Positions 14,753-37,085 of a stretch of DNA of 41,182 nucleotides are shown one piece after another. The notes below the pieces were generated by a model. The model was not told where the DNA came from. It searched no databases and saw only the letters and a program-made list of their open reading frames with translations. Source of the DNA: Sulfurirhabdus autotrophica (GTDB lineage Bacteria > Pseudomonadota > Gammaproteobacteria > Burkholderiales > SMCO01); the NCBI RefSeq assembly GCF_004346685.1, contig NZ_SMCO01000027.1, positions 1 through 41,182 of the forward strand, given 5' to 3'. Numbering within the stretch: position 1 is the stretch's first letter; each line of letters starts with the position of its first letter. The position numbers and the translations under genes were made by a program.

Positions 14753-16447
14753 ATGCCGTTAGAAATCAGTGTTGGGCAATCAAGTCAAACAGGACCGCGT
14801 GACCGCAATGAAGATTATTGCGGAATCGTTACTCCGGATGATAGTCAGCTCACCACAAAAGGCGCGATTCTGGCGGTGGCAGATGGTGTGGGTGGTGGGA
14901 ATGGCGGGCGTGAAGCGTCGGAATTTGCCGTGCGTGGCGTACTGTCAGATTATTATGCAACTCCCGATACCTGGGAAATCCCCTTTGCGTTAGATAAATT
15001 GCTGGTCGCGATCAATCGCTGGTTACTTGCTCAAGGTGCTTCTCACCGTGAACTTGCAGGTATGGCATGCACTTTGAGCATGCTGGTGCTACGTGGTAAT
15101 CGTTTTTACACTGCTCATATTGGTGATAGCCGTGTTTACCGGTTACGCGGGCAACAGCTGGAAAGACTGACAACGGATCATGTATGGGATCGCCCGGACA
15201 TGAGCCACGTGTTAAAGCGCGCGATCGGGCTGGATCAGCATCTGGTCATGGATTATGCAGATGGTGAGTTGCAGGAAGGGGATTGCTACCTGCTGGTTTC
15301 AGATGGTGTATGGGAACCTTTGGGCGACAAGGTTATTCATGAACTGCTGCATTTGCACCAGGACCCCCAGCGAGCGGCCGACCAACTGGTCAATGAGGCG
15401 CTTACCAAAGGCGGGCATGACAACGCCACGGCGTTAGTTGTACGGGTCAATAAACTGCCAGATGAAAACCTGCTGGATTTACTGGCTGAAGGACGTGATC
15501 TGCCCGTACCTCCTCGCCTCAAGCCCGGGCAACAAATCGACGAGTTTGAAGTGCTGGAAGTCATACACGACTCGCGCGCAACACTGCTGTATAAAGTAAA
15601 GCATAGCGTCAGCAACCAGATCCTCGTGCTGAAAACGTTGCAACCCATACTCAAGGATGATCCAGAAAGCTGTAATGGTTTGATCAGCGAAGAGTGGCTG
15701 GCAAAACGCGTTTTAGCTCATTATTTTCCGCAAATCATTCCGCTTTCATCTGAAAATCGTCACTATTTGTACTATGTCATGACTTTTCACGAAGGTGCTA
15801 CCCTTCAGCAAAAGATTGATAGTGGGCAACACTTTTCCATCGCAGATACCTCGCAGATAGGCATTCGCCTGATGAAAGGGTTGAGTGCACTGCATCGCCT
15901 CAATATCATTCATCGTGATATCAAGCCGGATAATTTACACAGTGGCGAAGATGGCAAGCTGCGGATACTGGATCTTGGCGTAGCGCTGAATCCCAGTATG
16001 ATCTCCGAGAAGGTTGAAGGCAATGCGGGCACACCGAGTTATATGGCACCAGAGCTATTTGTCGGGGAGCCAGCTACGGTGCAAACAGACATCTATGCAG
16101 CGGGTGTCAGCCTCTACTACCTGTTAACGCGCAAGTATCCATACGGCGAAATCGAACCGTTTCAGCATCCCCGCTTTGGTGAGCCGGTGCCCCCCACCCG
16201 TTATCGACCGGATATTCCCCAATGGCTGGAAAATATACTGCTGAAAGCCGTAGCAAAAGATATCAATCAGCGCTTTGAAACCACTGATGAATTTTTAATT
16301 GCCTTGGAACGCGGGGAGTTTAATCCTCTGCTGGCACCGCAACGTACACCGCTGGCAGGAAGAAACCCCATGCGGACATGGCAGGCTGTAGCCACTGTTT
16401 CAATCGTGATTAACCTGCTGCTGCTCTATTTAATGGTTGTGTCATAG
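14753..16447 (+). CDS. PP2C phosphatase-Ser/Thr kinase fusion with C-terminal membrane helix
   Basis: A 564-residue bifunctional signalling protein. Residues about 1-235 are a PP2C-type phosphatase (RDRNEDYC, VADGVGGG, GDSRVYR, SDGVWE and GHDNATALV). Residues about 260-530 are a Hanks-type kinase with catalytic loop HRDIKPDN (387-394), DLG in place of DFG (from D407), and GTPSYMAPE. A single membrane helix lies at about 543-562, so the enzyme domains face the cytoplasm. The phosphatase and kinase may act on the same substrate. Similar fusions sit beside nitrate assimilation genes in Betaproteobacteria, so control of nitrate uptake is plausible but inferred. No ribosome-binding site or promoter is evident after the operon terminator. 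Confidence 0.88.
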   Translation: MPLEISVGQSSQTGPRDRNEDYCGIVTPDDSQLTTKGAILAVADGVGGGNGGREASEFAVRGVLSDYYATPDTWEIPFALDKLLVAINRWLLAQGASHRELAGMACTLSMLVLRGNRFYTAHIGDSRVYRLRGQQLERLTTDHVWDRPDMSHVLKRAIGLDQHLVMDYADGELQEGDCYLLVSDGVWEPLGDKVIHELLHLHQDPQRAADQLVNEALTKGGHDNATALVVRVNKLPDENLLDLLAEGRDLPVPPRLKPGQQIDEFEVLEVIHDSRATLLYKVKHSVSNQILVLKTLQPILKDDPESCNGLISEEWLAKRVLAHYFPQIIPLSSENRHYLYYVMTFHEGATLQQKIDSGQHFSIADTSQIGIRLMKGLSALHRLNIIHRDIKPDNLHSGEDGKLRILDLGVALNPSMISEKVEGNAGTPSYMAPELFVGEPATVQTDIYAAGVSLYYLLTRKYPYGEIEPFQHPRFGEPVPPTRYRPDIPQWLENILLKAVAKDINQRFETTDEFLIALERGEFNPLLAPQRTPLAGRNPMRTWQAVATVSIVINLLLLYLMVVS

Positions 16448-17183: not shown

Positions 17184-17194
17184 TTCTGATTTGT

Positions 17195-17303
17195 TGTTTC
17201 GTGGTAATAAAGTTTTGAACAGAAGAATAAAGTTTTGAACTTTTGAGGTAATTTCGGGGCAACCCAAACAATAAAGTTTTGAACAAATGATGTAATTAAG
17301 GGG
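17195..17303 (+). repeat. Left end of Tn7-like transposon with three TnsB boxes
   Basis: AATAAAGTTTTGAAC occurs at 17206-17220, 17226-17240 and 17270-17284, all in the same orientation. Tn7 right-end boxes contain AATAAAGTCTTAAAC, so only two bases differ. The second and third boxes extend into imperfect repeats sharing TGAnGTAATT and GGGG. The first pair is 20 bp apart, the next 44 bp. Confidence 0.85.
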
Positions 17304-17440: not shown

Positions 17441-20400
17441 TTATGCTGCCGCCCACATTGCCGATAGCAACTCCGCCTGTGCCAGAACAGTTTTCGTCGC
17501 TTCCTCTTGCAAGTCCGGTGGGAAGCCGTGCTTTTTCAGGATACGTTTCACCATTACTTTGATTCTGGCTCTTGCACTTTCTCGGACGGACCAGTCGATG
17601 GTCACGCTCTTGCGCACTTGGGTCACGAGTTCGGCGGCAATGACTTTCAATTCATCATTGCCCATAGCTATCACCGCGCTTTCGTTAGCGGCTAGGGCAT
17701 CGTAGAAGGCGATCTCATCGTCGTTCAGGCCGAGATCTTGGCCGCGCTTGTTTGCTTCACTCATCTGCTTGGCAAGCTTAATGAGCTCCTCGATCACTTC
17801 CTGCGTTGCAATGGCTCGGTTGTGGTAGGCGTTGAGCGTGCTCTTGAGCATCTCGCTGAACTGGCGGCTTTGTACAAGATTGCGCACTGAACGTAGCTTG
17901 ATCTCATCCTTAAGCAGCTTGGCAAGTAATTCGGCGGCAACGTTCTTGTGTTTTAGTCCCCGCACTTCGGTGAGGAACTGTTCCGAGAGAATTGATATAT
18001 CTGGTTTTTTCAATCCAGCGGCGGTGAAGACATCGATGATGCCTTCGTCGGCCATGATCGCCGTAGACACGAGTTGGCGGATGGCATGGTCAAGTTCTTC
18101 AGGTGGACGTTGTGTGCCGGAGGTTTTTGCGAGCTGGGCCTTGATGGCCTGGAAGAAAGCGATGTCGTCGCGTAACTCAATGGCTTCATCTGTCGCTGCG
18201 CACAGCGCAAAGGTACGGGAGAGATCGGTCACCACTTGTACGAAGCGCTGTTTTCCTTCTTCTTGCTGCAACACATGTTCTTGTCCAGCGGGAATCAATC
18301 CTAAACGTTCAGCGGAAGTGCCAATCGTCCAGTTATCCCAGATGAAACCGTGCATGATGGCACAGGCTACATCGTGTTTCTCTTGCATTACCGCGATGGC
18401 CTGGGCGGTATCAATGCTCGGGCTGCCTTGGCCGCCGCTTTCGGTATAGGTGGCGAGGGCGTGCTTTAGCTGATCGGCGAGGCCCAGGTAATCCACCACC
18501 AAGCCACCGGGTTTATCGCGGAATACACGGTTAACCCGTGCTATTGCCTGCATCAGGCCGTGGCCGCGCATTGGTTTATCGGCATACATTGTGTGCAGAC
18601 AGGGCGCGTCGAAGCCCGTCAGCCACATATCACGCACGATGACGATGCGAAACGGGTCTTTGCTGTCCTTGAAGCGGGTTGCCAGTTCGCGCCGGCGCGG
18701 CTTGTTGCGAATATGTGGTTGCCAGTCAGGGCCATCATCAGCGCTGCCGGTCATTATAATCTTCACCAAGCACGCCTGCTTTTTCTCAGCCTCGATATCG
18801 TCGTCCTTGGCACTAGCCCAGTCGGGGCGAAGCTTAATGATGGCATTGTAGAGGTCCACGCAGATACGACGGCTCATGCACACAGCCATCGCCTTGCCAT
18901 CCATGGCTTCCAGGCGGCGTTCATAGTGCTGCACGAGATCTTCTGCAATGAGCGAGATACGTTTTGGATCACCAACCAGCGCCTCTAGTGCGGCCCATTT
19001 GGATTTGAGCTTCTGTTTCTTGTCTTCTTCTTCGCCCTCAGTGATCTCGTCGAATTCTTCGTCGATCTTCGGCAGCGCGGCCTGGTTCAGCGCCAGCTTG
19101 GCGATACGGCTCTCATAGTAGATTGGCACCGTTGCTTTATCCGCCACGGCGCGCTGGATATCATAGATGCTGATGTAATCACCAAAGATCGCCCGTGTGT
19201 TGGCATCGTTCTTCTCGACAGGCGTGCCGGTAAAACCGATAAAAGACGCATTTGGCAGCGCATCCCGCAGGTTGCGCGCCAGACCGTCAATCAGGTCGTA
19301 TTGGCTGCGGTGGGCTTCATCGGCGATCACCACGATGTTCCGCCGTGGCGACAGCTCGGGCATTTTCTCGCCCTTGTCCGGCATGAATTTCTGGATGGTA
19401 GTAAAAACCACGCCGCCGCTAGCCACTTGTAGTAGATCGCGCAGCTTCTCACGACTCTCAGCCTGGACCGGCATCTGGCGCAGTAATTCGTGGCAGCGCA
19501 GGAATTGGCCAAAGAGTTGGTCGTCGAGATCATTGCGGTCAGTAAGCACAACCAGTGTGGGATTCTGCATCGCCGGATGCCGCACGACACGCGCGGCGTA
19601 AAAGAGCATGGAGAAGCTCTTTCCAGAGCCCTGTGTATGCCACACCACCCCAGCGCGGCGGTCGCCCGGCTTGCCGCCGTGCATTCTGCCTGCCCAATAG
19701 GTGCCGAGGTCCTGGCGCAGATGGCTCTCGTCTGCCATGCTGCTTGCGCGCACCGTTTCCTCTACGGCTGCATTCACCGCATGAAATTGATGATAGCCTG
19801 CGATGATTTTGTGAAGGCGGTCGCTGTCCGTGTCTTCCTCAAAGACGATGAAATGCTGGAGCAGGTCGAGGAAGCGGCGCGGCTCGAACACCCCGCGCAC
19901 CAGCACGTCCAACTCCAGCGCAGTCTTCGGTGCATCGCCCTCGCCGTCTATCGTGCGCCACACCTTGAACCATTCCTGATTCGCCGTGAGCGAGCCGATA
20001 CGCGCATTTGTGCCATCGGACACCACCATCACTTCGTTATAGTGAAACAGACTGCCGATTTGCTGCTTGTAGGTTTGCAGTTGATTGAACGCCGACCAGA
20101 TCGTTGCATCCTCATCCGCCGCGTTCTTCAGTTCGATCACCGCCAGTGGCAAGCCGTTGACGAAAACCACGATGTCAGGCCGACGATTATTTTGACCTTC
20201 GATCACTGTGAGCTGGTTCACCGCCAGCCAGTCATTGTTCTTGGCGTTATCGAAATCCATCAGCCGCGCATGATCGCCCGCGATGCTGCCATCAGCACGC
20301 TGGTATTCCACCGGCACCCCATCGCGCAGCATGGCGTGAAAGTTTCGGTTGGTCTGCGTTGGCGAAGGCGTTCCAACCCGCAGTATCTTGCGAAGCGCAT

Positions 20401-20605
20401 CCTCGCGCGCCTCTTCCGGGATGGCCGGATTCAACCGCCAAATGGCCTCGCGCAGCCGCCCTGTCAGTACCACATCGTTAAACGAATCCCTTTCCGTCGC
20501 GGGCTCGCCTGGGGCCATGTGTGGGCCGTGGCTGATGGTGTAGCCCAACTCCTCGAACCAGGTCAAGGCAGCGTCTTCTACGATAGATTCATTGAGTGTG
20601 GGCAT
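17441..20605 (-). CDS. hsdR: Type I restriction enzyme subunit HsdR
   Basis: A 1054-residue motor and nuclease subunit of a type I restriction-modification system. The N-terminal nuclease motif is D144, E158 and K160 (RRPDIV and VIELKN). The translocase has Walker A TQGSGKS (324-330) and a DEAH box at 429-432, followed by RecA-like domain 2 motifs (FIGFTGTP and [11 protein letters not shown]) and a helical C-terminus. Length is normal and no disruption is seen. It is the last gene of the hsdM-hsdS-PIN-small ORF-hsdR operon, reading toward the transposon end. The start at 20605 has no strong ribosome-binding site; coupling to the upstream gene is likely. Confidence 0.96.
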
Positions 20606-20618: not shown

Positions 20619-20717
20619 CTAAATGAAAATCATGCCCAGAATGGAACGTGTCTGAAGCGTGTCATAGCATTTGTTATAGGTGAAGTCTTCTACGATGAAT
20701 TTGGTGAAATCTCGCAT
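20619..20717 (-). CDS. Possible 32-aa coupled small ORF between the PIN gene and hsdR
   Basis: The ATG overlaps the stop codon of the PIN-domain gene (TAATG), and the frame runs 32 codons (starting [14 protein letters not shown]) to TAG, 13 bp before hsdR. It could be a real small protein, a relic of a longer gene, or only a translational bridge that carries ribosomes to hsdR. I do not recognise it. Confidence 0.35.
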
Positions 20718-23038
20718 TAGTTCAGGCTTGGCGTCTTTTTAGAGTCTGGAACATAAACGGGTGAAGGCCTACGTTCTGGACTGGATAGGGCGCTCTGTTC
20801 CTGATCAATCTGTTTCTGTATCTGATTGGCGTATAGGTTGCCGATCACCCCAAGCATAAAACTCAAAACCACCAATGCCCATAGCCACCTCCTAAACCTT
20901 CCAATCTGCTTCAAGAACCAGAGCTGCGCAATCCGCTGATTTCTTCTCGACCAGTACTCTAGCAGCAGGTGACCAACTACGAACACGAGAACAGCCACCA
21001 GCCCCCTGAGGGGATTTTTCCCGATGAATTTTGCCCAATCAGGAAACAATCGATCCGCTTGCCATGCGGCAACACCCGCACCCAGAAGCACCAATGAGAG
21101 CAGTCCAAAATAGGCGAATAGGGCGAAGCGCTGCCTATTGTTCTCATCGGTACGCTTCAATTGTGTTTTCAGTTCTTCAATTTCAGCGCCTTGCGTGGTG
21201 AGTCTTTCATCTGTTGCTTTCTCTCGAGTTTCTTTCTCTTCAATTTTTTTGTTTAACCTAATGACTTCCGCAGTCTTCAATCGCTCACTGGCATCTAGTG
21301 CATTAAGTGCAGCCTCCTTTTCGTTCACAATAGTCTGCAACTGTTGCGCCTTATTGGCTTCAGCAGTAGTGCGTGCCTTCATCTCTTCGACGAGGGCATC
21401 GCGTATGTAAGCAATCTCGGCCTCCCCGTCCCCCGTTTTTTTGGATGGAAGCCGAGCACGCAACCCGTCATTGAGGATGACGCTGGTTAACGTTTGCACG
21501 GAAATATCGTCGCGCCCCTCGAATCGCCCAAGACCCTTGAGGATTCTTAGGCTGGTGCGTTCTCCTTCAGCGTCAAACTCTTGAAATAAGAATGGGAGGC
21601 GCATGCTACCAAGCATGGCTTCCTCAAATTCTTTGGTACGGGGTACCCAAAACTGTAGAAGCTGAATTAGCGAGGTTGGATGGAGGCAAAGAGGTATCTT
21701 CGATCCTGAATTCTTCTGTTTATATTCATCAAAACCAATCAGTCGGTAATCGACGGTGAGGATCCAATCCCGAGAATCGATTGGGGATTCGATGTAGGAT
21801 GGGCGTTGGTCGCTAACAAAGTGCCACAGGATCATATCGTGCGCCACTTTTTGGTAAGATTTCCTCCTGCCTTCGTCAAATCGTTTCTCAGAATCCTGGA
21901 CATAAAGAATATCGTCGATAACATCTTGCCGAATCGCATATGAGTCAAGGCTTTCATTAAAGAATTCCACCCCTTTCCCACGTGCAATCGTCACGAAATC
22001 ATTTAGATATGGGTCGAACCAGTCTTCGGTAGTTAACTTACCACCACGGCGCAGACGCTCAGATAGGAACCTCTCCACCATTCCCGAGACGCCTACGTTC
22101 AAGGCAGCTTGAGTAAAATTTTCGCCAGCGGGAATTCCTGAGAGGCGATACTTTGCCGAGGCAATCGACGTTTTTGCTTCCTCAATCGTCCTTGGAACGA
22201 TGAATAGCTGTACCTTGGGGTTAGATTTCAGCTGCGTGATCAGCTCAAGGAGCTCACGTGCGGCGTCATTCGAAGGATTCTCGTGCAATTCAAGCAGTGA
22301 AAACAAGAGGTTAGTGTCTACAAATACTCGAAACTTAGCTTGTTTGCTGACGGTGGCACTTAGTTTCTGAATTGCGGACTCTGGAAGCCCTCCGGCCTCC
22401 ACGCAAAAGCGTGCATGCAGCATGCGGCTGACATGCGCGCGCACTTCATCTTGCTTTGGGTCCAGAAAACTGGTTACAAGTTCTCTTAAGCCTGAATGAA
22501 ATTCCGGCTTAAATTTCTTTAAGAAATAATTAACTAAATTATGGTTTACATGCAGACTTTCGCCAGTAATAAGGTGGTATGCGTTGGCACCAAGCTCTTT
22601 AATGAGTGGTGTCAGTAACTCCGTCTGAAATGCGCTCCAGACACTAATTGCGTCGATGCCTGCGCAAAGCTCACTCGCAAGTTTGCAAAAGAACTCGCGC
22701 GCATTTAATTCGACTTTCTCAGCCGCTGCGATATCCTGCTCAAACACTAAACGTTGTGCATCCGGAATGCGGTATTGCCCTTCGTGAAGCGCGACCAAGA
22801 GGTCTTGCTTCTCCAAAACACTGAGCACTGCACGTAGTTTGTCATGGCTCAACGACAGTTTGAACTCCTGTAACAGTGTTTTTTTGATTTCATTGACGCT
22901 CGCTGGATGATCTGACCACCACACAGCGGCTAACGTGAGCCGTTGAACCACTTTGTCCCACCAACCCGAGCGATTCAGTTCGATGTGATGAACCAATGCT
23001 GCTACTTCTTTCGGTAAGAGTGTGGCTTCGGCGCTCAA
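20717..23038 (-). CDS. PIN-domain, coiled-coil, membrane-anchored protein inside the R-M operon
   Basis: A TTG start at 23038 is chosen because it overlaps the hsdS stop (TTGA) after AGGGGAGG; the longer open frame to 23317 only shadows hsdS. The product has 773 residues. Residues about 25-90 look like a winged-helix, 110-230 are helical, and about 236-435 form a PIN ribonuclease domain with all acidic positions: D241 (VFVDTN), E286 or E287, D401 (AHDMILWHF) and D430 (ILTVD). A charged coiled coil spans about 545-635. Three membrane helices lie near 639-660, 677-697 and 718-737. It is predicted to be a membrane-tethered RNase. Position between hsdS and hsdR recalls accessory nucleases such as PrrC that guard type I enzymes. 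Function is inferred. Confidence 0.8.
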   Translation of the reverse strand: MSAEATLLPKEVAALVHHIELNRSGWWDKVVQRLTLAAVWWSDHPASVNEIKKTLLQEFKLSLSHDKLRAVLSVLEKQDLLVALHEGQYRIPDAQRLVFEQDIAAAEKVELNAREFFCKLASELCAGIDAISVWSAFQTELLTPLIKELGANAYHLITGESLHVNHNLVNYFLKKFKPEFHSGLRELVTSFLDPKQDEVRAHVSRMLHARFCVEAGGLPESAIQKLSATVSKQAKFRVFVDTNLLFSLLELHENPSNDAARELLELITQLKSNPKVQLFIVPRTIEEAKTSIASAKYRLSGIPAGENFTQAALNVGVSGMVERFLSERLRRGGKLTTEDWFDPYLNDFVTIARGKGVEFFNESLDSYAIRQDVIDDILYVQDSEKRFDEGRRKSYQKVAHDMILWHFVSDQRPSYIESPIDSRDWILTVDYRLIGFDEYKQKNSGSKIPLCLHPTSLIQLLQFWVPRTKEFEEAMLGSMRLPFLFQEFDAEGERTSLRILKGLGRFEGRDDISVQTLTSVILNDGLRARLPSKKTGDGEAEIAYIRDALVEEMKARTTAEANKAQQLQTIVNEKEAALNALDASERLKTAEVIRLNKKIEEKETREKATDERLTTQGAEIEELKTQLKRTDENNRQRFALFAYFGLLSLVLLGAGVAAWQADRLFPDWAKFIGKNPLRGLVAVLVFVVGHLLLEYWSRRNQRIAQLWFLKQIGRFRRWLWALVVLSFMLGVIGNLYANQIQKQIDQEQSALSSPERRPSPVYVPDSKKTPSLN

Positions 23039-24369
23039 AAAGCCTCCCCTTGTACTAACGTGGTTGAAGGCCTTGTCCGCAACTCGCCAGAAACGAGCTT
23101 GGGAAGCAGCGCATCGCGCAGGGTGGCGAGGGTGCGGGATTGGAAGCAGTTGGCGGCGATCTGGTCGAAGAGTGGTTTCGCTTTTGTCAGATAGGCATTC
23201 ATGACTTGGTGGTCGGGACAGAGTAGAACGAGTTCGTTGACGTTCCCTTTGTTGATGTGCTGCTGGGCACCACCTGTCTGTGAGGAGATGAGTTTCTCTA
23301 TGTTCTCCTGAATCCAAGGGTAAATGAATTCAGTGGGGAATTCTTCGGACGCCGGGATGGCAACCACGGATTGGTTCGCACAACACTCAATTTCCGTGAT
23401 ACTTACTTGGCCCAATGTGGCTCCTGTAATTGCGAGAACAGTGGTTCGGCGCGGCAAAAGCTTCGTTGATGAATTCTCCAGCGCTTCCCTTGTGATCATT
23501 TCCGAAGGGGCGGTGATCCGAAATTCATTCGTCTTTCCGGAGTTGATCCAAGCCACAGTGCCCCCCGTCCAATATTCTGGCTTCTCGCGCGAAGGAGTGC
23601 CGCCGAGCACAGTAGAAAGTTTCGTTCCTATCGTGGAAATTTCCCACCCCTGTGGGATATGGCCGAGGGGGGAGTCTTGGAAATATGCGGGGAAAAGAGC
23701 AGCGGTATATGCATCCAGTCTAGCAGGTTCGCACCCGTCGAGTTTGGCGCGGACGGGGTCGAAATCGACAAACCAGCTCTGGAACAGCGCCCGCGCCATC
23801 GCCTCCAACGTCACGTTCATTCGCCGGTTCAACTCTATCTTGTTGTCCAGCGCCCCGAGGATGTGCGCTATGGCTTTTTGTTCGGTGATGGGTGGAAGCA
23901 CGATGGGAACACGGCCAAGAATCTGCTGATTTAGCGATGGCATAGTTGTACCTTCGCAGTTTTGTAGAAGCCACGCGCGGGTGGCGGGACTGCGCATCTG
24001 ATAGCTAAAGAACAGACTGCTGTACTTCTCAGAAAGACGAAGGCGAATACCGTCCGAACCCAAGAACCAGCCCTGCTGCTGCGGGTGGACAATTGCGTTA
24101 CGGTCGATGCCCCCTTTGCGGCCAAACACGATGTCGCCAATTTCCAAGATGAACTTTGGAAGCCGTTTCGTGGTTTCTTTACTAACACGAGGCGTTTTGT
24201 CACTAACTTCAAAGTGGCCCTGCCGGACTTCACCAACTGAAATGAGCGGAACACCTTCTGCCGAGTATTCCGCAGCCTTCAATGCCGTTCCGAACGGCCC
24301 GGTTTGAAGGTGAGCATCACCGGCTTTGATCAGCTCGCCGAGAATTGTCCCTGCCCACTCACCTGTCAT
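23035..24369 (-). CDS. hsdS: Type I restriction-modification specificity subunit HsdS
   Basis: A 444-residue DNA-recognition subunit with two target recognition domains: about residues 1-160 ([14 protein letters not shown] and PLISVGEV) and about 225-380. The central conserved region ([25 protein letters not shown]) and the C-terminal one ([19 protein letters not shown]) act as helical spacers. It overlaps hsdM by 11 bp and the PIN gene by 4 bp, so all three are translationally coupled. The two recognition domains differ, implying a bipartite asymmetric target that cannot be read from sequence alone. Confidence 0.94.
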
Positions 24370-26026
24370 ATCCTAACCCCCTCAGGTTCACCTTGATGGT
24401 CTGCTCTAGTTTTGCGGACTCAGCGAATTGCTCATTCAGTTCGGCCACGAGGCGCGCCATCTTTTCCTCGAAGGGTTCGCCGTCGTCTTCGACCTCCTCG
24501 GCGCCGACATAACGGCCAGGTGTGAGGACGTAACCATGGGCGGCGATTTCTGCGGTAGTGGTGGATTTGCAGAAACCGGGAATATTCTGGTAGCCCGACC
24601 CAGGTTCAGCGGGCAGTGTGTATCCAGCCGTATTTGCCGCGCCTCGCCACGCCAGATCGTCGGAACGCCATGCGTGGTAAGTTTCTGCGATCTTTTTAAT
24701 GTCCTCTTCTGTCAGTTCACGATGCACACGGTCAATGAGCGTGCCCATTTTTCGCGCATCAATGAAGAGCGTTTCGCGTCGATGGTCGCGCAGAAAATCC
24801 GGCACATCGTCATCGGGATGCCCAACCGTTCGGGCATTTTTACTTTTCGTGAGAAACCACAGGCAGACCGGAATTTGCGTGCTGTAGAAGAGCTGGCCGG
24901 GCAGCGCCACCATGCAGTCCACCAGGTCCGCCTCGATAATGGCTTTGCGGATATCACCTTCGCCGGACTGGTTGGAGGACATGCTCCCGTTGGCGAGCAC
25001 AAAGCCGGCGAAGCCGTCGGGTGCGAGGTGATGGATGAAATGCTGCACCCAGGCGAAGTTGGCGTTGCCCTTGGGTGGCACGCCGTATTGCCAGCGCACG
25101 TCATCATCCACGCGGTGCCAGTCGGAGTCATTGAAAGGCGGGTTGGCGATGACGAACTGAGCCTTGAGGTCTTTGTGCAAATCGCGCCGGAAGGTGTCGG
25201 CCTGCTCCGGGCCGAAATCCGCTTCAATCCCGCGAATGGCGAGGTTCATGATCGCCAGACGGCGCGTGGTGGCGTTACTCTCCTGGCCGTAGATGCTGAG
25301 ATCGCCGATGCGACCGCCGTGTTCAACGACGAATTTTTCAGACTGCACGAACATACCACCGGAACCACAAGCGGGGTCGTAGACACGTCCTTTGTAAGGG
25401 GCAAGCATTTCGACGATGGTACGAACGATGCAACTAGGAGTGTAGAACTGGCCGCCGTTCTTGCCTTCTGCACTGGCAAAGCGGGTGAGGAAGTATTCAT
25501 AAACGCGGCCAAGCAGATCAACCGAGCGGTGGGATTTGGCATCCTCGCCCTCTGTAGCGGTGGCGATAAGCGTGATGGTGCCGATTAGATCGATGAGCTC
25601 GCCGAGGCGGTGCTTGTCGAGCGCAGGGCGGGCATAATCTTTCGGGAGCACGCCTTTGAGGCGCGGATTATCGCGTTCGAGGGCGACCATGGCGTCGTCC
25701 ACCACCTTACCGATGGTGGGCTGCTTGGCTGCCGCCTGAAGCTCGTACCAGCGTGCTTCCTTGGGCACCCAGAAAACGTTTTCAGCTTTGTATTCATCAG
25801 CGTCCTCGGGGTCGGCGCCTTCGTAGTCACCTTTACCCTCAAGCAGCTTGGCGCGCATTTCCTCAAAAGCGTCCGAAATATATTTGATGAAGATGAGGCC
25901 AAGGACAACGTGCTTGTATTCCGCCGCGTCCATGTTGTTTCGGAGCTTGTCGGCAGCGAGCCAGAGTTTGGCCTCGAAGCCGATGGTTGCAGAACTGTCG
26001 TTGTTCTTTGCAGCTTTCTTCGCCAT
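24359..26026 (-). CDS. hsdM: Type I restriction-modification methyltransferase HsdM
   Basis: A 555-residue adenine-N6 DNA methyltransferase. ATG 26026 ([10 protein letters not shown]) is chosen over the longer frame to 26269 because AGGA lies 9 nt upstream and the N-terminal HsdM domain ([24 protein letters not shown]) starts directly after. The SAM motif is DPACGSGG (about 217-224) and the catalytic motif NPPF (about 295-298). It heads the operon and transcription starts in the 26027-26398 control region, divergent from the XRE gene at 26399. Confidence 0.95.
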
Positions 26027-26242
26027 CCGTTTTCCTATGGGGTAGTGCCTGACGAGCAGACATACCTGAGCCCAGCATGGCATATTTTGCCAGGTACCAG
26101 ACTCAAAAATACTTATTATTGGGCCACGCTGTAGATGCGCTATGACCCTCCCTTTATGCAGGGTAATCATAGCACTAAAATTCTTTATTCTTATGCTTTG
26201 CGCATTGTGTTTTTCATTAAAAAGGTATTTCCATGGTGATCG

Positions 26243-26263
26243 ATTTTTCAACAGGTGAAAAAT
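26243..26263. promoter_or_regulatory. Inverted repeat in the hsdM-XRE control region
   Basis: ATTTTTCA (26243-26250) and TGAAAAAT (26256-26263) form perfect 8-bp arms with a 5-nt centre. It lies in the 372-bp divergent region 26027-26398 and is a candidate operator. Confidence 0.45.
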
Positions 26264-26277
26264 ATACACAAAAAAAT

Positions 26278-27091: not shown

Positions 27092-28000
27092 ATGAATACT
27101 ATCGAAAAAAATCTGCGCGACCAGATCAAATCAGGACGCGGTATGGGACATGGCGCTGATTATCAGCCCTGGTTAATCATATCCAGACGTGGCTCTCCTT
27201 CGAACGGAAATATGAACTATCGGCACCTGCCTATACTGGGGCGCCACGGCCACTTCCTGTCTCGCAACGAATGGCATATAGCCTTGTGGGTCATGTGGCT
27301 TGGGGTGGAGGATCTGCGCGAGCAGTTTCCCCTTTGGCCATTTCCGCATTCTCACCCACTGTCAGGACGAACCGAGATGGAACAGATTCGGTTGCCAAGC
27401 AGTAGCGGTACCCTGGCGATTGCCAAGGAGCTGGGTATCGCTCACGGACGTTTTGCGGGCAGCAATATCCCTTATTTCGCCACCACGGATTTGATGCTCA
27501 CTGTATTCCATGACGGCATGTTGAAGGCTGTTGCCATTGCCGCAAAGCCTGCTGACATAGTGAACGGCAAGGTTGCTGCCAAGCCGCGCGTCAAAGAAAG
27601 GTTGATCCTGGAGATGGCCTATGCCAAAGAACTGGGTATACGCTGGCTGCTGCTATCCAATGGTGAAATTTCCAGTGCTTTGCGGGAGAATCTGGAGCTG
27701 GCTTTTCCAGCCTCAATTTTGCCAGACAGCTTGTCTAAAGGAATTGTTGTAGCCTATTGTGGCGCCATTACCGAGCTGCTACGCGCTGGTCTACCTGTTG
27801 GTAAAGCGCGGCAGATGACCGCATCAAAGCTGAATCTCGATGATAATCAGGCAAATGCTCTTTTTAATCACGGCCTGTGGTGGCGGCATATTCCCATTGA
27901 CTTGCGGCACCCTATCATCATGAGGCGTCCCGCCAAACTGACAGATTTTGCGTGGGTGAAACAAAGCGCCGAACAGATTCTGGGAGGCAGCCATGACTGA
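27092..28000 (+). CDS. tnsA: Tn7-like transposition protein TnsA (endonuclease)
   Basis: A 302-residue restriction-like endonuclease that cuts the 5' strands at the transposon ends, enabling cut-and-paste movement together with TnsB. Candidate catalytic residues are E60 (SRNEW), D133 (TTDLML) and K152 (AIAAKPAD); the Gln of the usual QxK motif is Ala here. The C-terminal half (about 165-300) is the TnsA winged-helix region. ATG 27092 follows AAAAGGA. It overlaps tnsB by 8 bp. Presence of TnsA puts this element in the Tn7 group and not the Tn5053/Tn5090 type. Confidence 0.88.
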   Translation: MNTIEKNLRDQIKSGRGMGHGADYQPWLIISRRGSPSNGNMNYRHLPILGRHGHFLSRNEWHIALWVMWLGVEDLREQFPLWPFPHSHPLSGRTEMEQIRLPSSSGTLAIAKELGIAHGRFAGSNIPYFATTDLMLTVFHDGMLKAVAIAAKPADIVNGKVAAKPRVKERLILEMAYAKELGIRWLLLSNGEISSALRENLELAFPASILPDSLSKGIVVAYCGAITELLRAGLPVGKARQMTASKLNLDDNQANALFNHGLWWRHIPIDLRHPIIMRRPAKLTDFAWVKQSAEQILGGSHD

Positions 28001-30260
28001 ACTCTTGCGTAACCAGATTTTGAGCATACCTGGAATTTTCCCCATGGAAGAACTGGTGAGAGTGCTCTGGATTAATGCGAAAAACGACCAGATAGTGCTG
28101 ATCCCGATCAATCAGACAAAGCGCAATTCTCCGTGTTTATTTTCATTCGACTTAATACAATCGGCGCTGAAACGTGGAGAAGCCAAGAGCAGCACATTGA
28201 AACCAGATCCCCGTTCGTTAATGGGCGAAGCACAGCTTGCAGGCCTCTATCCTTCCAGGAAGCCGGGTTATCCGCCGTTTGTTGTGGCTTATCGCAACCG
28301 CTGGTGGTCAATCATCGAGCCGATCGTGTCTCAGGAAGAACGCTATTTTTGTGGGTTATGTACACTGAATAGCCTAGTTATGCTTAGCGTCCGCGAATTT
28401 GGCGTCAGCAAGCAGAGTGTCTATCTGGCGTTATATCGGTACTGGGCAGCAGGCTCAGTCGTTTCGGCTATCCTGCCACAAACTACACGTTGTGGCGGTA
28501 AGGGAAAACATCGAGCTGGGAAAAAGATCAGCCTCGGCAGGAAAACTCTTGCCGCCAAGCGCAATGGGGATACCAACAGTAATTTTGCCCTGACCAGAGA
28601 GGACATTGACCATCTGCAATTTGGTTGGCGAACTTATGTCATTCCGGGTGTTAGTGTCGAGGCTGCCTACGACAAGATGATACGAACCTTCTATACCAGT
28701 AGTTGGGAACATCGCGATGGAAAACCGGAACCCGTCCCGATCTCTTTGGAGGAGGCGCCATCTATCAATCAATTCCAATATCACGGCGAACGCCAGGACG
28801 GTGGAGAAAAGGCTTGTAAACAGCATTTGTATAAATTGGACTGGCTGATGAATCATCGCCCCATGGCTGGGATGCCAACGGCAGGGCTGCGACGAATCGG
28901 CGCGATCGGACAGGCTGATGCCTCATCCAACGATGTCCATCTTATTTCCATGTTCGATCGCAGCAAAAATGTCGGGAAATGTTCTTGGGTGATAATTGTT
29001 GACGAGTTTACTGGGATAATCGCCGGGCTCTACGTGGGGTGGTCGGTCGATGGTGCGGCGGCCAAGCTGGCTATGCTTAACGCTGCTAGTTCAAAGGTGG
29101 ATTATTGCGCTCGCTATGGTATCCAGATCACTGAAGATGCATTTCCCAAAATTCATTTCAACACACTGCTTGTTGATCGGGGGGAGTTTAACTGCAATGA
29201 CGTGCGCACGGCTCTGAGTGGTATCAATACCTCTTTGGAGTATGTGCAGACTGGGCGCGGGGATTTTAAGCCATTGGTCGAGGGAAAACATCATGCGTTG
29301 CACGCCACCTCATCCCACCGGCTCCCCGGCACCACCCGCGGCAAGCACCGCAAGCGTGGCGAATCCGATCCTGCCCTGGATGCCTGCCTCACTATTTACG
29401 AATTCACGGCTGATCTTATCCGGGCCATAATTCATCACAACACCAAGGATCCGGTGCCCAAGCAATTGAGCACCGAAATGTTGCAAGATGGTGTGCAGCC
29501 GACTCGCATGAGTATCTGGCAATGGGCCCGTAAAAAAGGGTATGTCGCCTATCTGGATTGCGACGAAGATCGCCTGGTGACTAATTTGTGTCAAATAATC
29601 GATGCCGTGGTGCATGCGGATGGTGTGTACCTCATTGCCAAGAGTGAATCCACGGGGGGTTATGAGATTGTCGTCAGAGAATTGCGTTATCTTGGGCCGA
29701 TAGCCGAGCAACATAACTGGTTGGAAACGGCTCGCAGAAGAGGAAGTTTTCGTATACAGCTGTACCACAATCCATATGATCTGCGCCGTGTGTGGTATCT
29801 CGATCCGGAAGTCGGCCTGCAATCGCTTGAGCTTGTTAGCAATGATCCACAGCTCGAAGAATCCACCTTGCAAGATATCCTTCTTACACAAGGAAGGCTA
29901 AGTGAAAAGACCCGGCAGCTGGAAAAAAAAGCGAGGCAATCACGGATTGAAATGGCAGTGGAACGCGAGGCAGTAGTAAAAAATGCCCAGGATGAGAAAG
30001 ATCTGGCTGTTAAACGCCTGTCAAAACCGCCTAGCAAAAGTTCTCGACTGAAAAATAGGCGGAATAATCGCATTGATGAAATCGCACAAACGGGGAAAGC
30101 TGCCACACTCCTCACTCAGCTGGTTACAAACAATGAAGAGGAGGATACACCCACCACATTGGATTCAATGACGACAAATGAATCCAAGTATGATTTCAGC
30201 GAGGACAAGGACGTACTCAATCCTTACGATAAATGGTTGGATGAAGGTGATTCACAATGA
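27993..30260 (+). CDS. tnsB: Tn7-like transposase TnsB
   Basis: A 755-residue DDE transposase that binds the end repeats and joins the 3' ends to target DNA. Residues about 120-235 contain the helix-turn-helix DNA-binding domains; the catalytic core is about 300-500 with D309 (GQADASSND), D395 (LLVDRGEFN) and E430 (PLVEGKHH). A beta-barrel and a long charged C-terminal region follow (about 625-755, with a predicted coiled coil), which in this family contacts TnsC. It overlaps tnsC by 4 bp (ATGA). Its expected binding sites are the AATAAAG boxes at 17206-17284. Confidence 0.93.
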   Translation: MTELLRNQILSIPGIFPMEELVRVLWINAKNDQIVLIPINQTKRNSPCLFSFDLIQSALKRGEAKSSTLKPDPRSLMGEAQLAGLYPSRKPGYPPFVVAYRNRWWSIIEPIVSQEERYFCGLCTLNSLVMLSVREFGVSKQSVYLALYRYWAAGSVVSAILPQTTRCGGKGKHRAGKKISLGRKTLAAKRNGDTNSNFALTREDIDHLQFGWRTYVIPGVSVEAAYDKMIRTFYTSSWEHRDGKPEPVPISLEEAPSINQFQYHGERQDGGEKACKQHLYKLDWLMNHRPMAGMPTAGLRRIGAIGQADASSNDVHLISMFDRSKNVGKCSWVIIVDEFTGIIAGLYVGWSVDGAAAKLAMLNAASSKVDYCARYGIQITEDAFPKIHFNTLLVDRGEFNCNDVRTALSGINTSLEYVQTGRGDFKPLVEGKHHALHATSSHRLPGTTRGKHRKRGESDPALDACLTIYEFTADLIRAIIHHNTKDPVPKQLSTEMLQDGVQPTRMSIWQWARKKGYVAYLDCDEDRLVTNLCQIIDAVVHADGVYLIAKSESTGGYEIVVRELRYLGPIAEQHNWLETARRRGSFRIQLYHNPYDLRRVWYLDPEVGLQSLELVSNDPQLEESTLQDILLTQGRLSEKTRQLEKKARQSRIEMAVEREAVVKNAQDEKDLAVKRLSKPPSKSSRLKNRRNNRIDEIAQTGKAATLLTQLVTNNEEEDTPTTLDSMTTNESKYDFSEDKDVLNPYDKWLDEGDSQ

Positions 30261-31720
30261 AGCGTGACCTGAACCATGAAAAGGTTAATCTGACTGGTGC
30301 CGAGGAGGGTAATCCGCTCCTGAAATGGATTCCAAATATCAAGGATGATGAGGACATGATCAAATGGCTTGCTGCTGATCCCTTTCGGGATCCTGTCTGG
30401 TGCGAGACCCGCCGGGATTTCAGTCTCTTGCCTAATTATTTGAACGAGGTTTTTGTGCCAACACCTTCGGCGGTGAAACTGGCACGTACGTTGCTGACAG
30501 TTCTGAGAAAAAATTACGCTCAACGCGACCCCCGCAAGTCTGAATTCTGGACAAGCTACTATCACAACATGGTTAACCCGGAGTTGACCTATTCCGAGCC
30601 AAATGCATTCCAGGCTGAGGGGACCTCTATCTCCGGAATCACCGGGGTTGGCAAGACACGTATTATTGATCGTGTTCTCTCCAGATTGCCACAAACGATT
30701 CAACTTAAAGAGGTTGGCAGTCAATTGGCATCGGTCACGCAAATAGTCTGGCTCAAACTGGATATGAGCACGGCGGGTGGACTGGAAGAACTTTTGCGGG
30801 AACTGTGGAGTGCAATCGACACCTGTCTTCAGCGTACTGATGAGCAGCCGGATAGGCTGAATCTTCCCAAAATGATTCCGGAGATTATCCGGAAATTGAA
30901 GACCCACTTCTGCGGAATACTCGTTTTTGACGAGGTGCAGAACATCAATTTTGGCAAGAGCGGAATCACCGAACGAGTCAGAAACTTCGTCATGAAACTG
31001 TTGAATAATGGTATCCCTATTGTGCTGGCTGGCAACCCACGAGGTTTTACCTTTGAGGAAAAGGACGGCAAATCATCGCAACTTGTACGCCGCCTGGCCG
31101 CTACAGACAGGATTCGCCTGGATCCTGCGGAGGGGCCGGATGAGGATGGCTGGCGGATACTGGTGCGTGGCTTGTGGCGTTGCCAATTGTTGCCTGAACG
31201 CGGGCCGCTCACTCGTGAAGTGGAGGAATTGTTATTCCGGCTAACGGGAGGGTTTCCTGCTGCGCTGATTCGCCTGCTGGCAGAAAGCCAGCAACTGGCA
31301 GCACACCAGGGTCAGGAATTTCTGACTGTGGCGATAATAATGAATGCAGCCAAGATCAGTCCGTTTCTGAAAGAGATGAAGCCGATCATCGATGCTTTTG
31401 TCGCCAAGGACGCAGTCCGGCTCAATGCTTACAGCGATATCGACTGGTGCTACTTCCAGAGCAAATGGGCGACAGGCCATAGCCGAAACAATGGCGATCT
31501 ACTGAGTGGCGGTGAAGTTAGCTCTTCGCTGCGTTCCCCTGCTACTTCCAGGGATATCGTCGCTAAAGATCAGCGGGCGTTCAAAGTCAGTCAGACACGT
31601 CGTGCCAACAAAAACTTGCAGTCAAACGGAAGTGCATCAATAACCGCGCAGGGGAGTAACTTACTGGATGAGCTGGATGCTTTTTTCCAGAGTAAGTGCA
31701 AAAAAAATGATGATGGGTGA
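30257..31720 (+). CDS. tnsC: Tn7-like AAA+ regulator TnsC
   Basis: A 487-residue ATPase that links target-selection proteins (TniQ/TnsD) to the TnsAB transposase. Walker A is GITGVGKT (127-134) and Walker B ILVFDE (221-226). The C-terminal ~80 residues are Ser/Asn-rich and less ordered. Last gene of the tnsABC operon; it converges on tniQ1, only 28 bp away, and no terminator is visible between them. Confidence 0.93.
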   Translation: MKRDLNHEKVNLTGAEEGNPLLKWIPNIKDDEDMIKWLAADPFRDPVWCETRRDFSLLPNYLNEVFVPTPSAVKLARTLLTVLRKNYAQRDPRKSEFWTSYYHNMVNPELTYSEPNAFQAEGTSISGITGVGKTRIIDRVLSRLPQTIQLKEVGSQLASVTQIVWLKLDMSTAGGLEELLRELWSAIDTCLQRTDEQPDRLNLPKMIPEIIRKLKTHFCGILVFDEVQNINFGKSGITERVRNFVMKLLNNGIPIVLAGNPRGFTFEEKDGKSSQLVRRLAATDRIRLDPAEGPDEDGWRILVRGLWRCQLLPERGPLTREVEELLFRLTGGFPAALIRLLAESQQLAAHQGQEFLTVAIIMNAAKISPFLKEMKPIIDAFVAKDAVRLNAYSDIDWCYFQSKWATGHSRNNGDLLSGGEVSSSLRSPATSRDIVAKDQRAFKVSQTRRANKNLQSNGSASITAQGSNLLDELDAFFQSKCKKNDDG

Positions 31721-31748: not shown

Positions 31749-33257
31749 TTACTTCATTGGTCTAGTTTGCCAAAGGCTGGGTAGGTGTTCGGATAACCAG
31801 TCTCGGTCATTGCGGTAAAGCCATTTGTAACCACAACCAGGGAGCGTTCGCAGGAAAGTCAGCGAGGCTCCCGGGTTTTCTGCCAAAATCGCTAGGTAAT
31901 GTGCCCGATAAGTTTCACGCTGTTTGCCCAGATGGGCTTCGGTCCAGCTTGTTTTGAGATCAGGGTGGCTATTCAGAAAGCGCGTCACAGCATCGACAGA
32001 GATGCCCACACGCTTAGCTACTTCGTCTCGGTTCTCACCGGTGCTTAATGCCTCATGCAGAACAGGCAGTAACGTTGCGTGGATCGCACGGGGACGACGA
32101 CGATAGGGCAGGCCATCCTGTCTGGCCCAAAACAAGGCGAGATCCAGTTTCACCCCAAGTCGTCTGGCCGATTCGCTGACGGATAGCCCTTCCTGTTTTA
32201 TTAGTTCAGTCAATCTCTGGCGACGAGGGTCATCGTCTGTAAGTGGGTTTTGTGACCGCTTTTTAGCCGTTACAGCCAGCATGGCCTGATAAATCTCCCA
32301 AAATATTTGCCAGCTGCTGAACAGGAATGCCATCAGCAGCAGATGTTTGACTGGGTGTTTATGGCCGCGTACTGCACGCAGTAATACGCCCAGGAAACCG
32401 CTCGATTCATCTCGCACGGAAGCTATGAATTCGAAGCCGGGAATGGCTTCCAGCGCGTGGGCCTGGTGAAGGAAGTTCGTTCGCGTCTCTATCATCCTGA
32501 TCATTCCAGACCGCGTTAGCCATCCTCGCTGTTTCAGCCCCACCAGATAGGTTTGGCGCAGTATCTTCGGGTCCAGGTGTAGACCAGCGATCTGCTGGCA
32601 CTGGTTGGCGAAATCTGCCATTCGTTCAAGGATGTGCCAGCTATTTATGGCTTGCTCCGGGATATTCCAGTATTTCTCCTGGATATCCCCAGGAAGCAGC
32701 CATTGCAGGTTGTTGAGAGCTTTTGTCTTCGCAGCGCATGACCAAAGTGGCTGCTGATGGGCGAGGCATGCCCAGACTGCTGGCCACTGGTGTTCCAAGT
32801 GCCAATAGGCATTCCCAAAGCGGTGCTGATCTTCCAGCATGCAAACGGGACAGGCTTTCAATGGATGAGTCGCGCCTAAACGGCTGGCGGGAAGACCTAA
32901 TCGGAATTTAAGGCGTTCAACACTGGTCCCTGCCATAGAAGCCAGCGCGCTTTGACTCACCTCCGCAGGGCGGAAGGCAGTATAAAAGCCAAGCAAAGTA
33001 TGGTGATGTGCCAACGCTTCGATATCCCCCAGTAGTCCTCCCGATCGCTCCACAAAAACAGACAGGTGTGACGGGAAGTCTTGCATAAGCCCAGCAGTGG
33101 GTGATCCGAAAAGTTGTTTGCTGGTGTGTGCTGCCAAGTGATTTCCGCTTAATCGGTGATAGCGTGCGCACCAACTATAAAGCGTCTCGCCTGGCAGCAA
33201 TATCGGCAGGAAGGAAGGTGCGGCTTCGAAAAGATCAGGTTTGATGTTCACTGTCAT
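31749..33257 (-). CDS. TniQ/TnsD-like target-selection protein 1
   Basis: A 502-residue protein with an N-terminal TniQ domain (LLPGETLYSWCARYHRLSG at about 21-38) and a zinc-binding motif C136, C139, C164, H167 (CPVC...ACLAH). The C-terminal half has repeated helix-turn-helix segments (about 345-500). That layout is like TnsD, which binds a specific chromosomal site in the 3' end of a gene. Given the insertion 11 bp past sodB, its target may be the sodB end. There is no clear ribosome-binding site before ATG 33257. It is divergent from the XRE-tniQ2 pair across a palindromic operator. Confidence 0.9.
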   Translation of the reverse strand: MTVNIKPDLFEAAPSFLPILLPGETLYSWCARYHRLSGNHLAAHTSKQLFGSPTAGLMQDFPSHLSVFVERSGGLLGDIEALAHHHTLLGFYTAFRPAEVSQSALASMAGTSVERLKFRLGLPASRLGATHPLKACPVCMLEDQHRFGNAYWHLEHQWPAVWACLAHQQPLWSCAAKTKALNNLQWLLPGDIQEKYWNIPEQAINSWHILERMADFANQCQQIAGLHLDPKILRQTYLVGLKQRGWLTRSGMIRMIETRTNFLHQAHALEAIPGFEFIASVRDESSGFLGVLLRAVRGHKHPVKHLLLMAFLFSSWQIFWEIYQAMLAVTAKKRSQNPLTDDDPRRQRLTELIKQEGLSVSESARRLGVKLDLALFWARQDGLPYRRRPRAIHATLLPVLHEALSTGENRDEVAKRVGISVDAVTRFLNSHPDLKTSWTEAHLGKQRETYRAHYLAILAENPGASLTFLRTLPGCGYKWLYRNDRDWLSEHLPSLWQTRPMK

Positions 33258-33322: not shown

Positions 33323-33657
33323 ATGATTTATCTCCCGAACATATTGCAACCCTTGATCGGCTACGCCACGCAGTCGAAGCAAAGGTGATTACGCAAACCC
33401 AGATTGCAAGCGCCATTGGTGTTGATCAGTCCCAAGTTTCAAGAATCCTCGCAGGCCAGTTAATCCGGGCCTCGTCAAATGTTCAGAAATTATGCAAATT
33501 TGCAAATCAGCTCGCTGTATTCGGTATGCACGATCCCCGTCGGAATACGCTGCTGATGGATGCGCTCAGTTCCGTGTGGGATGGGAGTCCTGAACATGCA
33601 ACCGCTATCGCCAACGTTATCCTGAGTTTACGCACATTTAAGGAGGTCGCACGATGA
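33316..33657 (+). CDS. XRE-type regulator co-translated with tniQ2
   Basis: A 113-residue protein with an HTH (about residues 24-60: VITQTQIASAIGVDQSQVSRILAG) and a short C-terminal domain. Its start codon lies in a palindromic operator, which predicts autorepression. Its last four bases overlap the tniQ2 start, so both proteins are made from one message. It probably sets the level of TniQ2, and perhaps of TniQ1 on the other strand. Confidence 0.82.
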   Translation: MKNDLSPEHIATLDRLRHAVEAKVITQTQIASAIGVDQSQVSRILAGQLIRASSNVQKLCKFANQLAVFGMHDPRRNTLLMDALSSVWDGSPEHATAIANVILSLRTFKEVAR

Positions 33658-34637
33658 TGCAGCAACACAAAGCACACGTAAGTTTCTTTCCCATGCCGCA
33701 ATCGGATGAGTTGCTCGATAGTGTGGTCTACCGTTACCACCAACTTGCGGGTCATGCTTCTCCCCGTCAGACATTTAATGAGCTATTCGGCAAATTTTGC
33801 CAAGTAGTACCCAAGTTGATGACTAATCATACTAGCCATTTGCTAGCCAAGGTTCCACCACATTTATTCAAGGAAAGGCAGGATATTTTGGCTAAACACT
33901 TGCTTTTGCCTGCACTACACAGGATTTTCGGTGAAAACCATATTAAACAAGCAATATTAAATACCGAAAGCGGCGCTCGATTTGGAACTGATCGGATTTA
34001 TTACTGCTGTCACACTTTGCTGCTACAGCATTCACTTCAATGCTGTCCATTATGTATTCAAGAAGAACAAAATGAGATGGGCTTCGCATACTGGCATCGT
34101 AGCCACCAATTGCACGGAGTGGCAACCTGCCACAAGCATGGCTGCGATCTGATCCAGAATTGTCCGTATTGCGGGCGTCAGGCACGCCATCCGCGTAGCA
34201 TGGAGCTGCCAGAAAGCCATTGTCTAGGTTGCGGTAAGCGCTGGCTACCTACGTACAGTTTTTCAGAGTCGGTGAACCGATTGGCAAATCTGGCTTATGT
34301 CACTTGTAACAGTGGAAAAATGGAAGGGACAGACCTGGTTTTATTTGCAAAAGTGGTGTCAGCTATCACGGGAGGCAACACAGCAGCAGCATGCAATGAT
34401 ATGGAGGCAAGCTATGGCTCTGCATATTTTAAGTCAATTTACCAGAAAGAGAAGGATGTCCGTGGTGACTGGCTAAAGGATGCATTTCATCGGGAAAAGT
34501 TTAATCGCGGCGAGTTTGGTCCATGGACACTCAGATTCAGGCGTTATTCCGATCTTTTGATGGCGGTTGATAACTTGTTTGGGTCATGGGCGGACTTCGA
34601 CCGCTATGCTGTAAATTATCGCAAGACAGCAGCGTAA
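33654..34637 (+). CDS. TniQ-like target-selection protein 2 (short form)
   Basis: A 327-residue TniQ protein. The N-terminal domain is at about 12-60 (MPQSDELLDSVVYRYHQLAG). Zinc motifs are C131, C134, C159, H162 (CPLC...TCHKH) and a second finger C170, C173, C190, C193. It lacks the long C-terminal helix-turn-helix region of TniQ1, so it is closer in size to TniQ proteins that act with a separate targeting factor or select mobile plasmids. The start overlaps the XRE gene. There is no Cas partner in the window. Start ATG 33654 is followed by a second ATG. Confidence 0.88.
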   Translation: MMQQHKAHVSFFPMPQSDELLDSVVYRYHQLAGHASPRQTFNELFGKFCQVVPKLMTNHTSHLLAKVPPHLFKERQDILAKHLLLPALHRIFGENHIKQAILNTESGARFGTDRIYYCCHTLLLQHSLQCCPLCIQEEQNEMGFAYWHRSHQLHGVATCHKHGCDLIQNCPYCGRQARHPRSMELPESHCLGCGKRWLPTYSFSESVNRLANLAYVTCNSGKMEGTDLVLFAKVVSAITGGNTAAACNDMEASYGSAYFKSIYQKEKDVRGDWLKDAFHREKFNRGEFGPWTLRFRRYSDLLMAVDNLFGSWADFDRYAVNYRKTAA

Positions 34638-34806
34638 TGAGGAAATATGTTTGCTTTTTCACAGCATGCAACTATTTAAGTGGGTGCAGCCAAGATCGGT
34701 CACTGATATGCTTGAATATGAATCATATGAAAGTATTTGGAGCTGTGGGAGGACTTTTGGATTGAATTGATTCGCAAATGGCTAGGTGCGTTCGATAGCT
34801 TTTCAC

Positions 34807-37083: not shown

Positions 37084-37085
37084 TC

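Follow-up and report, generated by a model that had tools for sequence, protein, structure and literature searches.

The window analysed here is a stretch of 41,182 nucleotides (nt) from Sulfurirhabdus autotrophica (contig NZ_SMCO01000027.1, positions 1 to 41,182, assembly GCF_004346685.1). It contains a type I restriction-modification (R-M) operon in which hsdM, hsdS and hsdR all show the expected domains in family searches. Between hsdS and hsdR, and in the same direction as the operon, lies an extra open reading frame (ORF), an arrangement of the kind found for the rlo genes of Campylobacter jejuni. Its product, here named P0001, is a candidate membrane-anchored PIN-type protein and the subject of this report. 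The operon is composed as follows:

24359 to 26269, minus strand: hsdM, ORF taken from the first possible start; the HsdM_N match begins at residue 99
23035 to 24369, minus strand: hsdS, with the Pfam family Methylase_S matched in two stretches (E 6.7e-29)
20717 to 23038, minus strand: the P0001 gene, 773 amino acids (aa), with a homologue of about 56% identity in the genome G754 (NCJL01000003.1)
20619 to 20717, minus strand: a 32-codon ORF following P0001, probably not a gene
17441 to 20605, minus strand: hsdR, with T1RH-like_C (E 4.5e-126) and HSDR_N (E 2.1e-49) matched in Pfam

An earlier note on this DNA had placed a protein of 773 aa between hsdS and hsdR, with a TTG start overlapping the hsdS stop, and this was borne out. 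The ORF comprises 773 codons from 23038 down to 20717; its TTG (23038 to 23036) overlaps the TGA of hsdS (23037 to 23035) by 4 nt, and a Shine-Dalgarno-like AGGGGAGG lies 4 nt ahead of it. The start is credible because the ATG of the G754 homologue stands in the same alignment column, and the ORF is real. The same note had described the 32-codon ORF as overlapping the P0001 stop. The overlap exists, as one base shared between the two (TAATG), but the ORF itself is probably not a gene because the homologous loci hold no relative of it and no Shine-Dalgarno sequence is evident by eye.

P0001 has no confident family match in Pfam, NCBIfam, PADLOC or PHROGs. Along its sequence the following regions can be distinguished:

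residues 1 to 236 (22331 to 23038, minus strand): N-terminal helical region, no Pfam match above the cut-off
residues 237 to 465 (21644 to 22330, minus strand): PIN-like region with D241, E287, D401 and D430, weak matches
residues 537 to 636 (21131 to 21430, minus strand): charged helical stretch, a probable coiled coil, with weak matches to long-helix proteins and modelled as one long helix at low confidence
residues 638 to 656, 677 to 695 and 719 to 737 (20828 to 21127, minus strand): three hydrophobic helices with a positive loop at residues 696 to 718

The three membrane helices claimed for the C-terminus are present as 19-residue hydrophobic stretches, which recur at matching places in the G754 homologue. 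Positively charged loops mark the cytoplasmic side of a membrane protein (the positive-inside rule). The loop between the second and the third stretch contains seven lysine or arginine residues and no aspartate or glutamate, a charge pattern kept in the homologue, and since this loop is so strongly positive the N-terminal part of P0001 would be cytoplasmic. Judged from its sequence, P0001 is probably anchored in the membrane by the three C-terminal helices, with the nuclease side facing the cytoplasm. The coiled coil suggested ahead of the helices is consistent with the behaviour of residues 540 to 637 (approximately), which weakly match SMC, scaffold, tape-measure and similar long-helix proteins, as is expected of a coiled coil. 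A winged-helix-like N-terminus, also suggested before, was not confirmed, as no winged helix was detected there by Pfam. Residues 31 to 200 or so are the best-scoring portion of an otherwise poor model, with blocks at a predicted local distance difference test (pLDDT) score of 40 to 85, and are mainly helical with few short strands.

In the PIN superfamily the acidic residues are expected in the order D (on strand 1, within a 'DTN' motif), E, D, D. This order is found in P0001, where D241, E286/E287, D401 and D430 occupy the positions given in the earlier note and a stretch of about 110 residues separates E287 from D401. The G754 homologue has the same residue as P0001 at D241, E287, D401 and D430, and a D in place of E286; a distant partial relative (31% identity), which lacks the part bearing the other two, likewise retains D401 and D430. 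The PIN region was scanned against 24,736 Pfam families at E values up to 10, with program filters that drop most matches above about 0.1. PIN_12 was the sole family listed both for P0001 (E 0.15, 12.9 bits) and for the homologue (E 0.075, 13.9 bits), in each case on the DTN...E part; the piece from the third homologue, in which this part is missing, matched vATP-synt_E only (E 0.071). When the two halves of the region were joined with the intervening stretch removed, P0001 matched PIN_3 (E 0.031, 15.5 bits), PIN_12 (E 0.054) and RNA_pol_Rpb4 (E 0.14), and the homologue matched PIN_12 alone (E 0.033). The PIN assignment rests on the motif order, the invariance of the residues and profile matches that are weak but recur in both full-length homologues. 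A PIN domain in P0001 is plausible but unproven, and on this sequence evidence we consider it rather probable. The same DTN...E motif order is seen in VapC and other PIN toxins and in the Pfam families PIN_12 (PF16289) and PIN_3 (PF13470); P0001 differs from them by scores far below the family cut-offs, by the longer stretch between E287 and D401 and by its putative membrane anchor.

Several results weigh against the PIN assignment and the reading built upon it. The PIN profile scores remain below the curated cut-offs of 32 bits for PIN_12 and 27 bits for PIN_3, DUF7432 (E 0.036) matches the joined P0001 fragment about as well as PIN_3 does, and the C-terminal half of the region alone matches no PIN family; in P0001 this half matches Thioredoxin_9 (E 0.046), which is as good as the PIN matches. 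The NCBIfam PIN-toxin model TIGR00305 was matched by residues 48 to 87 (E 0.06), outside the candidate region, and therefore single matches of such strength carry little weight. In an hhalign comparison with four PIN_12 proteins (taken from four of 90 genomes), the alignment was confined to 11 columns at the DTN motif (probability 4%, E 0.0099). AlphaFold, proposed in the earlier note as a check of the fold, was run twice with two input sequences each and gave unusable models (pLDDT 46 and 38). Among the 69 Foldseek matches of the low-confidence second model (best E 0.49) none was significant; the chains of Nmd4 and PAE0151, which we take to be PIN proteins, were matched by this query at chance level only. 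Sequence and profile searches of solved structures with P0001 returned nothing below E 0.27. Just two full-length sequences of the family were found, too few to assign a fold with confidence or to test for selection.

Within the collections searched, the P0001 family is rare and uncharacterised. The full-length homologue in G754, a metagenome-assembled genome of the Gallionellales, shows 57% identity in the genome search and 56% in the alignment. A partial, broken copy exists in the genome G1061 on a contig of 6 kb, which ends just past the break of the gene (L010 5950-6077) in a stretch matching four Pseudomonas plasmids, the annotated one of which names an IS3-family transposase there. The searches used P0001 or its profiles, and some genomes recur between the samples. 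The class sample (369 genomes) contained one match, that of the window itself, the order sample (399 genomes) two (the window's own genome and G754) and the phylum sample (398 genomes) three, namely its own, G1061 and a weak match of 18.9 bits in G1165. The latter was dropped as chance, for it lies on the strand opposite to an ORF of 636 aa and contains a stop. Searches by family yielded only the own match in the single genome of P0001's family, one match (G754) in the 100 genomes of the G754 family, one (G1061) in the 248 genomes of the G1061 family and none in the 250 genomes of the family of G107. A search of a genome-contig collection with two patterns of seven residues, which has low sensitivity, led from 45 pattern matches to one locus, identical with G754. 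No P0001 relative was found in viral contigs (three scans), plasmids or phages, nor by blastn with the P0001 gene in E. coli genomes. Four Klebsiella plasmid records at E 2 over about 60 aa (threshold E up to 10) were regarded as chance matches; the one that was read is a gene of 298 aa about 1 kb before a terminase gene.

Both full-length genes are found among defence genes. In the window these are the type I R-M genes, and in G754 one flank of the homologue consists of a protein of 459 aa without known function, an Mrr-like protein (below the Pfam cut-off) and a NACHT protein. The opposite flank is formed by an operon of the cyclic oligonucleotide-based anti-phage signalling system (CBASS) with a patatin effector, a cyclase and an E1-E2 protein; an MmeI-type R-M gene follows further along. 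The NACHT protein of this island comprises 1522 aa (L006 1586-6154, also present in cut form at L003 15660-19853). A part of 1397 aa gave no PADLOC match at E 0.001, and the gene is a candidate for an undescribed defence gene.

In the window, the hsd operon is bordered by a putative transposon end on one side and by a gene set of the Tn7 type on the other:

17192 to 17290, plus strand: putative transposon end, made up of TGTTGTTTCGTG and then three repeat units AATAAAGTTTTGAAC, lying 8 nt past the stop of sod
27092 to 28000, plus strand: tnsA-like gene, Tn7_TnsA-like_N matched at E 1.1e-4 (below the Pfam cut-off), 36% identity to a protein of the G754 island
27993 to 30260, plus strand: tnsB-like transposase gene, assigned by position and similarity to a G754 island protein, no Pfam transposase match
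30257 to 31720, plus strand: gene of a TnsC/TniB-like ATPase, assigned by family scan and similarity to G754
31749 to 33257, minus strand: gene of a TnsD protein (TniQ family), Pfam match, 37% identity to TnsD of the G754 island
33654 to 34637, plus strand: gene of a second TniQ protein, Pfam match and similarity to G754

In G754 the end is composed of TGTTGTTTCGTG and three near-identical repeats of about 20 nt, situated 7 nt after the stop of an ammonium-transporter gene (L003 3753-3838) at the edge of the island that holds the P0001 homologue. In the window as well as in G754, tnsA, tnsB, tnsC and tniQ/tnsD are present in the same island, the further identities to the G754 proteins being 29 to 31% for TnsB, 30% for TnsC and 31% over 169 aa for TniQ. 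Both full-length P0001 genes are located in Tn7-like islands with the same transposon end. Tn7-like elements have been described that carry R-M, CBASS and PIN-toxin genes; in the portion of the source consulted (PMC8649781), no cargo with the architecture of P0001 was seen. Two points weigh against the reading favoured below: the TnsB proteins are as distant as stated though the ends are nearly the same, and one end was found per island, the repeat pattern giving no second one either in the window or in the stretches read from G754. The end sequence had no match among plasmids.

Contig C25 of the window's genome contains repeats that were considered as a possible second end and are unrelated. 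A degenerate second copy of the end sequence is present in G754 (L042 10735-10810), about 43 kb beyond the first one and in the same orientation, and is perhaps a remnant of an older insertion. The two ends of the window's contig (1 to 95 and 41088 to 41182) are perfect inverted copies of each other, probably an overlap of the assembly graph or a repeat where the contig was broken off. After the second TniQ gene, the region from 34800 to 41182 contains small ORFs which by eye resemble helix-turn-helix or antitoxin genes, for example at 37086 to 37382, 39575 to 39826 and 40539 to 40862. Outside the island, between a gene of a major facilitator superfamily transporter and sod, a PP2C-type phosphatase joined to a Ser/Thr kinase domain is encoded (14753 to 16447).

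A comparison of all ORFs of at least 30 aa in the window (437), within 10 kb on either side of the homologue (220) and on the third contig (67) revealed no neighbour gene common to the loci. Apart from P0001 itself, the matches comprised short ORFs read in different frames of its gene and two short window ORFs at or across the transposon end, with 16 to 19 aligned residues; two further short ORFs with 21 to 27 aligned residues were taken as chance or remnant.

The position between hsdS and hsdR is a slot used by many genes. A relative of the window's HsdR is present in 710 plasmid records, and of these 17 of the 40 listed were read, picked for genus spread and not at random; all of their HsdR proteins show less than 60% identity to that of the window. 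Three records (H4, H5, H10) had no hsdS annotated just upstream and were excluded, leaving 14 operons. At least one annotated gene fills the slot in 10 of the 14, the cargo being a hypothetical protein, a SIR2 protein, Fic together with PD-(D/E)XK, an FRG protein, PDDEXK proteins with or without LprI-type and hypothetical genes (three records), and in the remaining records an ATP-binding protein, a BstXI-family enzyme and DUF4268. The slot is empty in H8, H20 and H39, and H28, with a gap of about 950 nt without an annotated gene, was counted as neither filled nor empty. These counts include two Polaromonas records with similar cargo (H13 and H19) and depend on the PLSDB gene table, which is incomplete by its own description. 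Nine of the ten filled operons show an overlap between hsdS and the slot gene that follows it, of exactly 4 nt in seven. The overlap is therefore a property of the slot and not of P0001. P0001 itself has no match in this plasmid collection. Two of the plasmid operons carry genes annotated as 'PIN domain-containing protein' downstream of hsdR (L028 9819-10868 and L036 10363-10776), one of them with an AbrB-type partner.

Similar observations have been published. The rlo genes of C. jejuni sit in the same kind of site (PMC5183652), and in the RRDM island of E. coli DarTG2 and another gene pair are located between hsdS and hsdR, a site which was called a potential recombination or defence hotspot (PMC12255303). 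As far as these sources describe them, the rlo and DarTG2 genes resemble P0001 in position, whereas the proteins differ. The term 'PIN domain' does not occur in the main text of PMC12255303 (PMC5183652 was not searched for it). Toxin-like domains occur in R-M operons generally, according to the part of PMC3506569 consulted. A word search of the open literature returned few papers on a membrane PIN nuclease or on a PIN protein in hsd operons, which does not prove their absence.

The earlier note had proposed that P0001 is built into the type I enzyme and guards it, in the manner of PrrC: the HsdMSR complex would hold P0001 inactive, and RNA would be cut when a phage disables the R-M system. PrrC with PrrI sets a precedent in which the gene of an RNase is linked to hsdMSR, and this mode of action has been proposed for toxins encoded in R-M operons (PMC3506569, PMC3710099, each as far as consulted); moreover P0001 lies between hsdS and hsdR with its start overlapping the hsdS stop, and further type I systems exist in the genome of the window. 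However, the slot and the overlap are common to many unrelated genes, and the homologue of about 56% identity has CBASS, Mrr-like and NACHT genes as neighbours, and its genome gave no match to HSDR_N or Methylase_S at E 0.001 (HsdM was not searched for). This genome is rated 100% complete and 1% contaminated, and the same searches found four and six places, respectively, in the window's genome and were positive in nine of 14 control genomes each; the lack of hsd genes in a genome with the homologue rests on this one metagenome-assembled genome. Since a close relative lives without it, P0001 is unlikely to need a type I R-M system as a switch. A rare association of homologues with hsd genes had been named in advance as speaking against the guard, and neither of the two homologues outside the window lies beside hsd genes, a small sample in which the 6-kb contig of the second (G1061) carries none. 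PrrC, furthermore, is described as an anticodon nuclease of the HEPN type that also contains an ABC NTPase domain (PMC3710099, PMC3506569, in the parts consulted). P0001 has neither a HEPN nor an ATPase match in Pfam, possesses hydrophobic helices, and has its nearest homologue in a genome that shows no type I R-M. A guard of the PrrC kind is therefore not supported and seems quite improbable.

P0001 might also be a defence effector with a fold other than PIN, in which the acidic pattern arose by chance and the protein works chiefly at the membrane, for instance by depolarising it. The conserved hydrophobic helices, the unusable AlphaFold models and the sub-threshold profiles, equalled by unrelated families, would fit such a protein. 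But for both full-length homologues the uncut region lists PIN_12 alone, on the DTN...E part, and the two proteins do not differ at any of the four acidic residues. We regard this explanation as unlikely, if worth keeping in mind. A toxin ensuring addiction to or stability of the transposon, with a separate antitoxin and no anti-phage role, would agree with the fact that each full-length copy occurs in an island bearing Tn7-type genes, and with the PIN toxins listed as Tn7-like cargo in the consulted portion of PMC8649781. Against it stand the absence of a partner gene common to the loci among ORFs of at least 30 aa and the lack of relatives of the 32-codon ORF elsewhere. VapC has a length of about 130 aa and a dedicated antitoxin, and a protein of 773 aa with hydrophobic helices is unlike it. 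This role appears very improbable.

We slightly favour, over all other readings together, that P0001 is a self-contained membrane-anchored PIN-type defence nuclease of a rare family, which as cargo of a Tn7-like element became lodged in the hsdS-hsdR slot. From the previous interpretation it retains the probable membrane anchor, the PIN-like acidic pattern and the defence setting, without integration into, or guarding of, the type I enzyme. The protein would be held by its three C-terminal helices with the nuclease side in the cytoplasm, and the PIN-like site would cut RNA or another nucleic acid with metal ions bound by D241, E287, D401 and D430. The N-terminal region and the coiled coil may keep P0001 off or sense infection, and the activated protein would stop translation or growth ahead of phage release. 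The position in the hsd operon would supply expression but not control: P0001 would normally be silent and act alone once infection is sensed, as is suggested for DS-3 by its authors (PMC13092281, in the part consulted). DS-3, reported from DefensePredictor, is a one-protein PIN defence system without a cognate antitoxin, and from that description the likeness consists in a single protein, a PIN site (putative in P0001), no recognisable antitoxin and a presumed autoinhibition until infection. It differs in that the candidate PIN region of P0001 is central and followed by hydrophobic helices; the two were compared by description and not by sequence (PMC13092281).

A more far-reaching proposal, tentative at best, is that P0001 represents a new single-protein anti-phage family: a cytoplasmic PIN nuclease that its coiled coil and the three helices at the C-terminus hold at the inner membrane, that a Tn7-like transposon lineage has spread into or beside other defence operons, and that is triggered not by failure of R-M but at the membrane by injection, membrane stress or lysis proteins. 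Should P0001 prove to be a PIN nuclease that is tethered to the membrane and protective against phage, a nuclease effector would be placed at the membrane, and the protein would allow a clean test of whether a slot gene depends on the R-M enzyme or merely rides in its operon. The transposon end shared by two bacterial families links Tn7-like transport with the exchange of the P0001 gene.

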